Assembly (NCBI RefSeq): GCF_001447155.2
Contig: NZ_CP014754.1
Span: 2,108,001-2,172,000 of the forward strand
Direction of reading: 5' to 3'
Length of the DNA stretch: 64,000 bases
Origin: Marinobacter sp. LQ44
GTDB taxonomy: Bacteria; Pseudomonadota; Gammaproteobacteria; Pseudomonadales; Oleiphilaceae
Within the stretch, counting starts at the first letter, position 1, and the number at the start of each line of letters is the position of its first letter. The notes beneath the pieces are model-generated. The model had not been told where the DNA came from, did not search any database, and saw only the letters and a list, made by a program, of their open reading frames with translations. Made by a program: the position numbers and the translations under genes. Positions 6,925 to 52,896 of this stretch are shown here, piece by piece.

Positions 6925-8367
6925 ATGGACGAAAACCACCAACCGTTACCCGAAGCCCGACAGCCCCTTGTTCGCCGCACGCTGGCGGAATGGAGAACCC
7001 TGGCCATTCTGGGCGGGCCGATCCTGATTGCCCAGGTGGCACAGATGGCCAATGGGGTTATTGATACCGTTATGGCGGGCCACGCCAGCGCTCGGGATTT
7101 GGCCGCGGTAGGCATTGGCAGCAGCCTGTGGATGCCACTATTCCTGTTTTTCATGGGCATGCTGGGGGCGCTGCAACCGATCATTTCCGGCTACAACGGT
7201 GCCCGGCAGCACTCGAAGATCATGCCGGCCACCTGGCAGGGCATTTACATCGCAGCCGGCGGCACGGTGATCATGGCGTTGTTGCTGACCAACGTACACC
7301 CGGTACTGGCGATGCTGAAGATGGATACAGAGACTGCCGGCATCACCCAGGGATACCTGAACGCCTTCGCCTGGGGCATTCCAGCCCTGCTTCTTATGAA
7401 CGCTCTGCGGGGACTCACTGACGGCCTCGGCCACACCCGGGTAATCATGGCTTTCTCTGTACTCAGCACGCTGATCAACCTGCCGCTGAACTACATCTTC
7501 ATTTACGGCAAGCTAGGCCTGCCCGCCATGGGCGGTGTGGGCTGCGGCTGGGCGACATCGCTGTCCAACGGGACGGCCGCCATTGCCTTACTGATCTACC
7601 TGAACCGGAGCCGTACCTTCCGCCAGTTTCACCTGCTGGCCGACTGGGTGAAGCCCAACTGGCGGGGAATTCGCTACATTCTGGGTATCGGCGTGCCGAT
7701 TGGCTTCACCATTTTTGTCGAAGCCAGCATGTTTTCGGTCATTGCCCTGTTCCTGGCGCCCCTGGGGCCGGTGATCGTGGCGGGACATCAGATTGCGCTG
7801 AACGTGGTGTCGTTGTTGTTCATGCTACCGCTGAGCATAGGCATGGCACTGACGCTGCGGGTGAGTTTTCTGGTGGGTGCCCGGGCGCCGGATACCGCCC
7901 GGCTGATTTCCCGTAGCTCGCTCATCCTGGCCTCGGCGGTTGCCCTGATCTTTGCCACGTTGCTGTTTGTGTTCTCCGCACAGATCGCCGCACTCTACAC
8001 CGGCGACCAGGCCGTGCGGGATGTCACCATTCGCCTGCTGGCGTTTGCCGCCATGTTCCAGGTTGCTGATGTGATTCAGGTAACCTGCATCAGTGCGCTC
8101 AGGGGCTATAAGGACACCCGCATTCCCATGTTCATTATGCTGTTTTCGTTCTGGGGGGTTGGCCTGCCACTGGGCTACGTTCTGACCTTTACAGACCTGC
8201 TTTGGCCGGCGTTGGGAGCGGCGGGGTTCTGGGTGGGGCTGACGGCGGGGCTGACCTCCGCCAGTGTTTTGCTGGGTTGGCGATTGTTCCGCTACCGGCC
8301 CGGAAACCACCATCACGGCGAACCCGACAGCCGGACTTCAGTTCAAGCCGGTTCGGCCACCAACTGA
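6925..8367 (+). CDS. MATE-family multidrug efflux pump (NorM type)
   Basis: A 480-residue, 12-helix membrane protein of the MATE family. The two MatE repeats are visible (GPILIAQVAQMANGVIDTVM near residue 33, and VPIGFTIFVEASMFSVIALF near residue 260). NorM-type pumps expel cationic drugs and dyes in exchange for Na+ or H+. The C-terminal end is polar and rich in histidine and arginine. Its last 25 bases overlap the 3' end of the convergent GGDEF gene. Confidence 0.9.
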   Translation: MDENHQPLPEARQPLVRRTLAEWRTLAILGGPILIAQVAQMANGVIDTVMAGHASARDLAAVGIGSSLWMPLFLFFMGMLGALQPIISGYNGARQHSKIMPATWQGIYIAAGGTVIMALLLTNVHPVLAMLKMDTETAGITQGYLNAFAWGIPALLLMNALRGLTDGLGHTRVIMAFSVLSTLINLPLNYIFIYGKLGLPAMGGVGCGWATSLSNGTAAIALLIYLNRSRTFRQFHLLADWVKPNWRGIRYILGIGVPIGFTIFVEASMFSVIALFLAPLGPVIVAGHQIALNVVSLLFMLPLSIGMALTLRVSFLVGARAPDTARLISRSSLILASAVALIFATLLFVFSAQIAALYTGDQAVRDVTIRLLAFAAMFQVADVIQVTCISALRGYKDTRIPMFIMLFSFWGVGLPLGYVLTFTDLLWPALGAAGFWVGLTAGLTSASVLLGWRLFRYRPGNHHHGEPDSRTSVQAGSATN

Positions 8368-14497: not shown

Positions 14498-15280
14498 TCA
14501 GAATGCCGGTACTACTGCACCTTCGTATTTTTCTTTGATGAACTCGCGAACGGCGTCTGATTTCAGCGCATTGGCCAGTTTCTGCATGGCGTCGCTGTCC
14601 TTGTTGTCCGGGCGGGCAACCAGGATGTTTACGTAAGGGGACTCGGCACCTTCAATCACCATGGCATCTTCAGACGGGTTCAGGCCGGCTTCCAGGGCGT
14701 AGTTGGTGTTGATCAGGGCCATGTCGACCTGGTTCAGGATACGCGGCAGGGTAGCGGCTTCCAGTTCGCGGAAGTTCAGGCGCTTGGGGTTGTCGGCAAT
14801 GTCACGGGGTGTGGCGGTGATTTTGCTTTCGTCTTTCAGGGTGATCAGGCCGGCTTCCTGAAGCAGCAGCAGGGCGCGGCCGCCGTTGGTGGGGTCGTTG
14901 GGGATGGCCACTACGGCACGATCTTTCAGTTCGTCGAGGGAGCTGATTTTGCTGGAGTAGGCACCGAAGGGCTCAACGTGGATGCCGGCAACGGTGACCA
15001 GGTTGGTGCCACGGCCGCTGTTGAATTCGTCCAGGTACGGCTGGTGCTGGAAGAAGTTGGCGTCCATCCGCTTCTGGTCAACCTGGATGTTGGGCTGTAC
15101 GTAGTCGGTGAAGACTTTCACATCCAGCTCAACACCTTGTTCGGCCAGCGCCGGCTTCACAAATTCCAGCAGCTCAGCATGGGGGACCGGAGTAGCGGCT
15201 ACGGACAGTTTCTCTGCAACAGCAGCAGAGGAGAAAGTTGCTACGGCAGCGATGGCTACCAGAGTTTTCTTCAGATTCAT
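14498..15280 (-). CDS. metQ: methionine ABC transporter substrate-binding protein
   Basis: A 260-residue NlpA/MetQ-family periplasmic binding protein: signal peptide (residues 1-22, ending SSAAVA), then KLSVAATPVPHAELLEFVKP and the DANFFQHQPYL and YVNILVARPDN segments of the family. Many relatives are lipoproteins, but this one has no lipobox cysteine, so it is predicted to be soluble in the periplasm. AGGAGA precedes the ATG. It is the last gene of metN-metI-metQ; a 200-bp gap containing a long inverted-repeat element separates it from metI. Expected ligands are D/L-methionine. Confidence 0.92.
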   Translation of the reverse strand: MNLKKTLVAIAAVATFSSAAVAEKLSVAATPVPHAELLEFVKPALAEQGVELDVKVFTDYVQPNIQVDQKRMDANFFQHQPYLDEFNSGRGTNLVTVAGIHVEPFGAYSSKISSLDELKDRAVVAIPNDPTNGGRALLLLQEAGLITLKDESKITATPRDIADNPKRLNFRELEAATLPRILNQVDMALINTNYALEAGLNPSEDAMVIEGAESPYVNILVARPDNKDSDAMQKLANALKSDAVREFIKEKYEGAVVPAF

Positions 15281-15328
15281 TATTGCGTTCTCCTGTGGAG
15301 CATCGTGTTTAACTTTGGTTTACGGCAC

Positions 15329-15433
15329 GCTGCTAGGAGGTTCCTTCCGAAAAACGCCCGTAAATACGTCCATGTAGGGCTCCGTCGCGCCATCCCTGGC
15401 GCTCCAGGTTTTCGGAAGGAACCTCCCAGCAGC
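15329..15433. repeat. long inverted-repeat element in the metI-metQ gap (copy 1)
   Basis: Two 25-bp arms (15329-15353 and 15409-15433) are complementary at 24 of 25 positions. The 55-base centre holds two small hairpins with four-base loops: TACG-TCCA-TGTA and GCGCCA-TCCC-TGGCGC. The layout matches the element at 46286-46387, though the arms are unrelated. No open reading frame or transposase is present. Confidence 0.85.
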
Positions 15434-15480
15434 CTGCCTATACCGGACTTTGGAATTGCCTGCCCGGCTCAATCACAGTC

Positions 15481-16158
15481 TTACTTTCTGCTGAAATACA
15501 GCACCAGACGATCACCAACCATCTGGAGTACTTGTACGAAAATCACCAGTAACGCGACGGTGATCACCATCACGTCGGTCTGGAAACGCTGGTAACCGAA
15601 GCGGATGGCCAGGTCGCCCAGGCCGCCGCCACCGATGACGCCAGACATGGCCGCGTAGGAGACCAGGGTGATGGCCGTCACGGTAATACCGGCGATGATG
15701 CCCGGAAGCGCTTCCGGCAGCAAGGCGCCGAAGATGATCTGGCGCACGTTAGCACCCATGGCCTGAGTGGCTTCGATGATGCCGCGGTCGACTTCCCGCA
15801 GGGAGGTTTCCACCAGGCGGGCGAAGAAGGGGGCACCGCCAGCCACCAGTGGCGGGATGGCGCCGGCCACGCCCAGTGACGTGCCAATGAGCAGTACGGT
15901 GAACGGGATCATCACGATCAGCAGGATGATGAAAGGCACGGAACGCAGTACGTTGACCACGAACGACAACACCGCGTAGGCCACCGGTTGTTCCAGGAGC
16001 TGGCGTTTGCCGAACAGGAACAATAATACGCCAATGGGCAGGCCGATCAGTACGCTGAACAGCAGGGACATGCCCACCATCACCAGGGTGTCCCAGCTGG
16101 CCCAGCCGATTTCCAGCCAGTCGACGTTGCCCATGAGGGTTTCCATTAAAGCTTCCAT
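15481..16158 (-). CDS. metI: methionine ABC transporter permease
   Basis: A 225-residue inner-membrane permease with five hydrophobic helices and the ABC-permease EAA-type loop (IEATQAMGANVRQIIFGALLPEALPG), which contacts the ATPase. Its ATG overlaps the metN stop (ATGA), so the two are translationally coupled. Together with MetN and MetQ it forms the methionine uptake system. Confidence 0.93.
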   Translation of the reverse strand: MEALMETLMGNVDWLEIGWASWDTLVMVGMSLLFSVLIGLPIGVLLFLFGKRQLLEQPVAYAVLSFVVNVLRSVPFIILLIVMIPFTVLLIGTSLGVAGAIPPLVAGGAPFFARLVETSLREVDRGIIEATQAMGANVRQIIFGALLPEALPGIIAGITVTAITLVSYAAMSGVIGGGGLGDLAIRFGYQRFQTDVMVITVALLVIFVQVLQMVGDRLVLYFSRK

Positions 16159-46226: not shown

Positions 46227-46285
46227 CCAACACTCACCCACTGCTGCGTTTAACCTAGAAATCTCAAACGGCGGAGCATGCCGCA

Positions 46286-46387
46286 CCGGGTGGGTAGTGC
46301 CTCCCGGGACACGCGGCGAGTACATCCATGTACGCTCCGCAAAAACATCCATGTTTTTGAGGGTCCCGGGAGGCACTACCCACCCGG
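46286..46387. repeat. long inverted-repeat element in the nrtB-nrtD gap (copy 2)
   Basis: Two 25-bp arms (46286-46310 and 46363-46387) are perfectly complementary. The 52-base centre contains TACA-TCCA-TGTA, extended outward by GCGG/CCGC, and AAAAACA-TCCA-TGTTTTT. Same plan as 15329-15433, with different arms and a different second stem. Confidence 0.9.
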
Positions 46388-46418
46388 CGCTCGTCCGACC
46401 TGTTTAGGGGATTCTGTT

Positions 46419-52799: not shown

Positions 52800-52896
52800 G
52801 AGCGCGGGGGCCGGGGTAATTTTCTTCTGGAAAAAATAACTCGCTTTGCTCAGACATCTTTTTTCCTGCCAGAAAATTACCCCGACCCCCGCGCTC
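52800..52896. repeat. long inverted-repeat element in the nirB-nirD gap (copy 3)
   Basis: Two 26-bp arms (52800-52825 and 52871-52896) are complementary at 25 of 26 positions. The centre adds GGAAAAAA/TTTTTTCC around TAACTCGCTTTGCTCAGACA. The centre differs from copies 1 and 2 but resembles the one at 62236-62319. Confidence 0.88.

Follow-up and report, generated by a model that had tools for sequence, protein, structure and literature searches.

The two inverted repeats found in the 64-kb window, by which we mean the whole 64,000-nucleotide stretch of Marinobacter sp. LQ44 DNA that was analysed, belong to a dispersed family of about 100 copies in which a locus-specific stem of about 28 bp carries two GGA hairpins and G.T mismatches are in excess, and whose sites differ between relatives by presence or absence, by inversion and by block replacement of the arms. 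As the best explanation we propose, with somewhat less than even confidence, a mobile-like palindromic element of the YPAL/TwoAYGGAY type whose RNA would offer a candidate two-site dock for CsrA. The copies in the window and the genes beside them are laid out as follows.

46283..46390, GGA strand minus: copy 2, whole stem-loop element, an inverted repeat; 105.5 bits with the family model
46283..46310: copy 2, arm on the left side of the stem (28 nt); complementarity to 46363-46390 is 96%
46363..46390: copy 2, arm on the right side of the stem, pairing with 46283-46310
46320..46333, minus: copy 2, hairpin P2 (GTACATCCATGTAC; on the minus strand GTACATGGATGTAC), 5-bp stem around TCCA, GGA at 46325-46327
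46340..46359, minus: copy 2, hairpin P3 (CAAAAACATCCATGTTTTTG), 8-bp stem, GGA of the minus strand at 46348-46350
15324..15438, GGA strand minus: copy 1, whole element, an inverted repeat; 102.6 bits with the family model
15324..15353: copy 1, arm on the left side of the stem (30 nt); complementarity to 15409-15438 is 93%
15409..15438: copy 1, arm on the right side of the stem, pairing with 15324-15353
15365..15376, minus: copy 1, hairpin P2 (TACGTCCATGTA), from sequence and family alignment, GGA of the minus strand at 15369-15371
15387..15402, minus: copy 1, hairpin P3 (GCGCCATCCCTGGCGC), 6-bp stem, GGA of the minus strand at 15393-15395
15481-16158, minus: MetI-type permease gene, flanking copy 1
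14498-15280, minus: MetQ/NlpA-type lipoprotein gene, flanking copy 1
flanking copy 2, plus: ABC permease gene (nearest model ntrB, below that model's cut-off)
flanking copy 2, plus: ABC ATPase gene (ntrCD)

A sequence-only reading of this DNA had described two structured inverted repeats with self-pairing arms, and both were borne out: the minus-strand folds reach -79.7 kcal/mol for copy 1 (z -11.0, arms 93% complementary) and -81.7 kcal/mol for copy 2 (z -11.8, arms 96% complementary), with none of 200 dinucleotide shuffles as good in either case. The location given for them was right, while the extents of 15329-15433 and 46286-46387 with 25-bp arms proved slightly short of the elements and of their arms of 30 and 28 nt. 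The common plan of the centres, with TCCA-type loops, a GCTCCG spacer and a second hairpin, is as described in both copies; on the plus strand copy 1 carries TACGTCCATGTA and copy 2 TACATCCATGTA, each followed by the spacer, and then the second hairpins GCGCCA-TCCC-TGGCGC and CAAAAACA-TCCA-TGTTTTTG, respectively. Both P2 and P3 of copy 2 fit CANGGANG on the minus strand. The two copies are the strong family-model matches of the window, the next best elsewhere in it reaching 28.8 bits. A second kind of long hairpin lies at 52800-52896, with 37-nt arms that are 84% complementary, a 23-nt loop and no GGA tip; the family model gives it only 28.8 bits.

Each window copy is placed inside one transporter gene set with co-directional neighbours, the GGA strand being sense to both the MetI-type and the MetQ/NlpA-type genes at copy 1 and antisense to both flanking ABC transporter genes at copy 2. 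That the repeats are bidirectional intrinsic terminators, or palindromes arisen by chance, is very improbable. A GC-rich long stem near gene ends would suit terminators, as would the short CTTTTG that the family flank shows immediately beyond one arm (on the strand first read), but both window copies sit within a co-directional transporter set, no long T-run adjoins either of them, and the tip is conserved across families, which speaks against terminators and chance alike; chance palindromes are excluded by the fold shuffles together with the absence of matches to a reversed control pattern.

In the LQ44 genome a simple core pattern has 25 matches compared with 0 for its reversed version; the pattern is present in 38 of 58 genomes, own included, and several core subtypes exist among the copies. 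The sequence-only reading had proposed a covariance-model scan, with a lack of further copies as a refutation; such copies are plentiful, so that this refutation fails. A model built from 49 copies (leaving out L006, L007, L008, L017, L027, L029 and the truncated copy in L045) finds 106 distinct copies in the 4.44-Mb LQ44 genome (G000), a lower bound because 150 of 1489 candidates were scored, and 120 in the close relative G375 (150 of 1416 candidates scored). These counts remain after removal of four opposite-strand duplicates and one weak match (E 0.003) from 111 model rows in LQ44, and of four opposite-strand duplicates from 124 rows in G375. In a scan of 274 sampled gammaproteobacterial genomes, own included, under strict filters and with at most 13 candidates scored per genome, 49 genomes and 44 of 222 genera have matches at E 1e-4.

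Close pairs of full-length model matches are always head to head (13 of 13 in LQ44 and 19 of 19 in G375), and one truncated LQ44 copy (2567026) stands in tandem instead. We also note that 27 of the 106 copies fall within one 250-kb stretch of the LQ44 contig (1.00-1.25 Mb), that G051, from another family of the order, has 27 core-pattern matches and nine CsrA-family matches, and that an extra hairpin-bearing insert lies within one hairpin loop in L017 and L029 (P3) and in L263 (P2), as if the loops were insertion targets. A plasmid search with copy 2 gave no match; with a core query it returned nine Pantoea records, all covering less than 80% of the query, one of which (L364) scores 54.8 bits with the family model. 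The phage records searched gave no match, and five viral-contig stretches (L382-L386) contain the core pattern.

The arms were said to share no sequence, and it is true that they differ from copy to copy and still pair: over the 106 LQ44 copies 2887 of 3180 arm cells are Watson-Crick, and 99 of the copies are Watson-Crick at 26-29 of 30 arm positions. They are nevertheless partly conserved, which qualifies the distinction drawn earlier from a REP or MITE with conserved arms; a weak consensus exists for the arms of the family, most evident on their inner side (..AGGGCTTTCCAAAAC), and the inner arms of copies 1 and 2 have CCTYCCGRRA in common. The junction bases are conserved in the family alignment, and weak common flanks lie outside the arms (in GGA orientation ..CAAAAGTTtG before and GCACCAAA after), with 8.0 and 10.4 bits of information compared with 6.4 and 8.0 in shuffled flanks. 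In the 49-copy alignment 29 of 29 arm pairs are changed on both sides, doubly changed cells over the whole structure number 527 compared with a shuffled mean of 146, and shifting the partner by one column lowers pairing from 87% to 40-46%. At the copy-1 locus 30 same-site copies, aligned by fitting them to the model, show changes on both sides in 24 of 29 arm pairs, and doubly changed cells number 193 compared with 50. These data support a structured family in which the letters of the stem change while pairing is kept.

On the strand originally read, plus in the window, arm mismatches are A.C in 53 cases and G.T in 14. If RNA pairing is under selection, the folding strand should tolerate G.U more than A.C, and by this imbalance the folding strand would be the reverse complement; the bias and the GGA loops together point to the strand opposite to the one first taken as informative. 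On the GGA strand the arms of the 106 copies hold 76 G.T and 23 A.C mismatches; copy by copy, 50 have more G.T, nine more A.C and 47 neither. The bias is independent of the direction of neighbouring genes, G.T:A.C being 26:9 for copies in sense on both sides, 13:9 between convergent genes, 11:4 between divergent genes and 13:0 for copies in antisense on both sides. One-sided arm differences number 67 G.T and 17 A.C between LQ44 and G375, and 11 G.T and 2 A.C at the copy-1 site (columns counted at the 19 of 30 sites where a TAGGC/TAGGT flank was present and the core could be parsed), the three sets overlapping and not being independent. The G.T excess is not the sole asymmetry of the GGA strand, since T.T exceeds A.A (63 vs 11) and G.G exceeds C.C (17 vs 6), an imbalance that may partly reflect register at the inner A/T runs. 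In 34 elements from 29 loci of other families, taken by best model scores, there are 14 G.T and 17 A.C, which tells against the RNA reading, and the bias is demonstrated for this genus alone.

The motif CANGGANG, which we take to be the CsrA/RsmA binding consensus, occurs 211 times on the GGA strand of the 106 copies and once on the other strand, compared with a mean of 5.3 and a maximum of 12 in shuffles. At least two such motifs are found in 103 of the copies, three lacking one of the two, and the N position takes all four letters; the two loops are spaced 23-25 nt apart in 102 of the 103. The AY form of the loop is kept in 69 of 103 first loops and 59 of 103 second loops, the first loop letter often being G, and 31 of the 34 elements of other families have at least two CANGGANG motifs. 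A text search for the CANGGANG string returned CsrA papers mixed with unrelated ones. The LQ44 genome has one CsrA gene (ORF start MLILTRRVGETLMIGD) and 55 of 56 relatives have one, but since CsrA is near universal in the group the presence of its gene tells little. Two GGA hairpins in a suitable loop context on one strand, a feature of CsrA/RsmA-binding RNA, are thus present by sequence. The sponge RNAs CsrB, RsmY and RsmZ, which are encoded by a few dedicated genes and carry many GGA hairpins for CsrA/RsmA, resemble the LQ44 element in those hairpins and differ from it in that the latter exists as about 100 dispersed copies, each with two main GGA hairpins on a long stem.

Of the 106 copies, 104 have gene calls on which their context could be scored, all such calls being heuristic. 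The upstream gene is co-directional with the GGA strand at 65 of the 104 sites and the downstream gene at 56, while 23 copies, copy 2 included, are antisense to both neighbours. Such a modest upstream bias allows for read-through RNA; its small size and the antisense copies count against a CsrA-docking RNA. We propose that the GGA strand would be transcribed by read-through from a co-directional upstream gene or from a promoter of its own, and that the RNA would form a long stem presenting the two GGA hairpins at a spacing of 23-25 nt, over which one CsrA/RsmA dimer could clamp both. An element positioned in a 3' UTR or between cistrons would tie the mRNA decay of its neighbours to CsrA, and all copies together would constitute a distributed CsrA sponge; the cores would spread as a mobile family, whereas the arms, which need only pair, would turn over quickly. 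It is improbable, though conceivable, that the element is a plain RNA hairpin stabilising or processing mRNA between cistrons, as for ERIC and BIME repeats, with CsrA uninvolved. Its intergenic position agrees with such a role, as do the 40 of 104 copies lying in sense direction between two co-directional genes and its occurrence at metI/metQ in 30 of 30 loci in both orientations, which a symmetric stem would tolerate; yet a plain hairpin leaves unexplained both the conserved junction bases and the two conserved GGA loops set on one strand at a fixed spacing.

The sites themselves are in flux. Among 30 fetched congeneric loci for the copy-2 site, the best matches of 100 genomes, 17 are filled and 13 nearly empty, with 11-58 nt between the genes, and in the filled loci the arms differ between loci while each pairs with itself. 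Of 80 named permease loci five hold an element at this site, three in the orientation first read and two inverted (L174, L194). The permease has its nearest named relatives in Marinobacter. At the copy-1 site (metI/metQ) all 30 fetched loci hold one, six of them inverted and two of another subtype, and this site is among those that show stepwise change, 10 of 24 pairs having at least two Watson-Crick types among 19 orthologs.

Comparison of LQ44 with G375, in which sequence beside the elements is about 95% alike, revealed a same-site partner for 92 of the 106 copies; partners are under-counted, as three of the 14 partnerless copies are nearly identical in their arms to unpaired G375 copies. 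At 49 of the 92 shared sites the arms are kept and at 43 they are not (the cut being 15 of 19 outer arm positions), although two of these form a single pair exchanged through an inversion, and values of 12-14 stand for partial change. Flank identity at the replaced-arm sites is 45% within 0-20 nt, 64% at 20-40 nt and 83% at 40-80 nt, compared with 86, 87 and 93% where arms are kept, and beyond 80 nt the two groups agree to within about 2 points (flank sides that had another copy within 500 bases, 25 in all, were left out). A core likeness above 0.9 is retained at 26 of the 43 replaced-arm sites compared with 9% of random pairs. Among the 92 partners four are inverted, and one of these (1138127) has largely kept its arms. 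Stems change not only gradually: the arms and the adjoining flanks can be different as one block, often with the core type kept. The earlier proposal of selection on structure is right in that structure is kept (527 vs 146 doubly changed cells), but gradual selection as the whole cause is not supported, given 43 of 92 sites with largely different arms.

New paired arms may possibly arise via template switching, via exchange with unsampled alleles or via repeated insertion. Copying of arms from other genomic sequence was considered and, as far as the search reached, rejected: a likeness seen in L167 was not matched a second time in the window when up to 3 mismatches were allowed, and the search of about 430 kb of the 4.44-Mb LQ44 genome gave seven weak arm matches (at least 30 bits) outside elements. 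Nor do replaced arms appear to be shuffled copies of other elements. Their best matches among all elements of both genomes mostly reach 11-15 of 19, while unrelated pairs average 9.3 and reach at most 17; exceptions are 2812960/2813175, a pair exchanged through an inversion, and a weak and unusual G375 copy (3630127) similar to another unusual one. Individual sites add to the picture. At 2331400 G375 (L372) retains the outer palindrome with the core gone, either a collapse or an uninserted hairpin; at 2334817 G375 has no element; beside 1740570 an extra element is found in G018; and in the MAG locus L167, after position 6990, arm-like sequence runs directly into the ATPase coding sequence at a short common stretch, through a deletion or an assembly error.

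Much of this behaviour would be expected of a miniature mobile element of the YPAL type acting at the DNA level and having no RNA role, which we regard as somewhat unlikely. Its palindrome would be kept as a substrate for mobility or remade by template switching between the arms, and the GGA loops would be bases read by a mobility enzyme on one single strand. Filled and empty sites at copy 2 (17 vs 13 of 30), inversions at shared sites, head-to-head close pairs, block replacement of arms and flanks and the lack of a G.T bias in other families all favour it, and YPAL is itself described, in excerpts of the source, as mobile and as targeting dyad symmetry (PMC2229807). What stands against it is the strong one-strand wobble bias in the genus, even if single-stranded DNA could give some of it, and a loop motif that suits a known RNA-binding protein in both hairpins; moreover, no enzyme was found, and counts of Y1 transposases do not track copy number. 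The latter observation bears equally on REP/REPIN-type repeats moved by a RAYT (Y1) transposase, an account with hardly any probability in our estimate. The head-to-head pairs, the single Y1_Tnp gene of LQ44 and the mean of 21.0 pattern matches in genomes with Y1_Tnp compared with 10.2 in those without would fit, but over 36 congeneric genomes the numbers of transposase genes and of pattern matches are not correlated by rank (0.10, p 0.54), 14 of the 15 genomes lacking a Y1_Tnp match have pattern matches, and REPs differ in size and tip as far as an extract of PMC3733652 describes them. The elements may still have been mobilised by such an enzyme in the past.

The preferred reading, a palindromic element whose RNA would dock CsrA, also draws on likeness to named repeats. 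The sequence-only reading knew of no named family of this description, which did not hold, as the core resembles YPAL/RU-2 and the Rfam families RF01731 and RF02770. YPAL or RU-2, for which De Gregorio 2006 is reportedly the original paper, has the core GCGCCAAGGATGGCGC followed by CTACATGGATGTATTTACGGCGT, its two CANGGANG loops lying at a distance of 24 nt, and is intergenic and multicopy with internal inverted repeats, as is the LQ44 element (106 copies, by heuristic gene calls). Local alignment to the published RU-2/YPAL sequence scores 81 for the best of the 106 copies, 70 for copy 1 and only 43 for copy 2, against a maximum of 40 in 300 shuffles. The LQ44 element differs in its near-perfect arms, which vary from copy to copy, and in its number of about a hundred; a 168-bp unit conserved along its length was not seen, conservation being confined to the core and inner arms with weak flank motifs. 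The partial texts of the sources describe YPAL as a 168-bp palindromic sequence of Yersinia (PMC2759123, PMC2229807) and as a structured intergenic repeat (PMC2229807, PMC2267715). At the three aligned sites checked for target-site duplication and for insertion at dyad symmetry there was no clean duplication, and one of these is a palindrome without core.

At gathering cut-offs no Rfam family matches within the 64-kb window. TwoAYGGAY (RF01731) scores 36.5 bits (E 2e-4) on the minus, or GGA, strand of copy 1, below its cut-off of 43, and does not match copy 2 up to E 10. It has matches in 20 of 29 genomes, seven of them over the cut-off, compared with 0 of 14 controls; one of 14 loci from other families exceeds the cut-off (L108, 45.2 bits). 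In LQ44 there are 16 matches at E 0.01, the best of 37.8 bits (66 of 218 candidates scored), and the 10 checked among the matches listed are all model copies on the GGA strand. Since any long hairpin helps, microRNA-precursor models (mir-642) obtain comparable E-values with either strand of copy 1, and the sub-threshold TwoAYGGAY scores are therefore weak evidence. TwoAYGGAY shares the long outer stem and the two GGA hairpins on the same strand (103 of 106 copies), and differs in that neither window copy reaches the 43-bit cut-off and the AY letters are often not kept. In the passages available it is proposed to bind CsrA, with a poorly conserved outer stem (PMC4333381), and is listed for human gut, gammaproteobacteria and Clostridiales (PMC2864571). 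The consensus of the Yersinia sRNA Ysr224 (RF02770) has the same core on the TCC strand, so that its annotated strand is opposite to the GGA strand; its best score, at L098, is 38.0 bits (E 2e-7) with a cut-off of 70 bits, and in the window it gives only 17.4 bits for copy 1 and no match for copy 2. To our knowledge ERIC and REP/BIME repeats lack the two-GGA core and have more conserved arms, and by that description they are set apart from the LQ44 element. Excerpts of the sources describe both as structured repeats between genes for which roles in mRNA stability are proposed (PMC2229807, PMC3733652). The LQ44 element is a high-copy variant of the YPAL/TwoAYGGAY kind, in which the variant is new and the core is known. 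Among the papers listed by literature searches that lie outside most subscription journals, none is on the repeat in Marinobacter or connects YPAL to CsrA.

A bolder version, which we consider doubtful, is a self-spreading family of CsrA decoys, in which a mobile two-site clamp in about 100 copies would hold much of the CsrA capacity, transporter and other operons would become wired to CsrA, arms would be remade as near-perfect palindromes at a very high rate, and YPAL, TwoAYGGAY and Ysr224 would form one class; the rapid renewal of the arms would then perhaps exist because copies able to pair or recombine are harmful.

Block renewal of paired arms between near relatives calls for caution in covariation tests, as changes of paired bases in repeats may have other origins than stepwise compensation. 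Three separately catalogued entries, a repeat of Yersinia, an Rfam motif with no assigned role and an sRNA placed on the opposite strand, come together through one core, and about a hundred intergenic repeats per genome are given a proposed strand and a testable role. If CsrA binds the copies, models of Csr regulation in these bacteria would need to include a distributed sponge of repeats.
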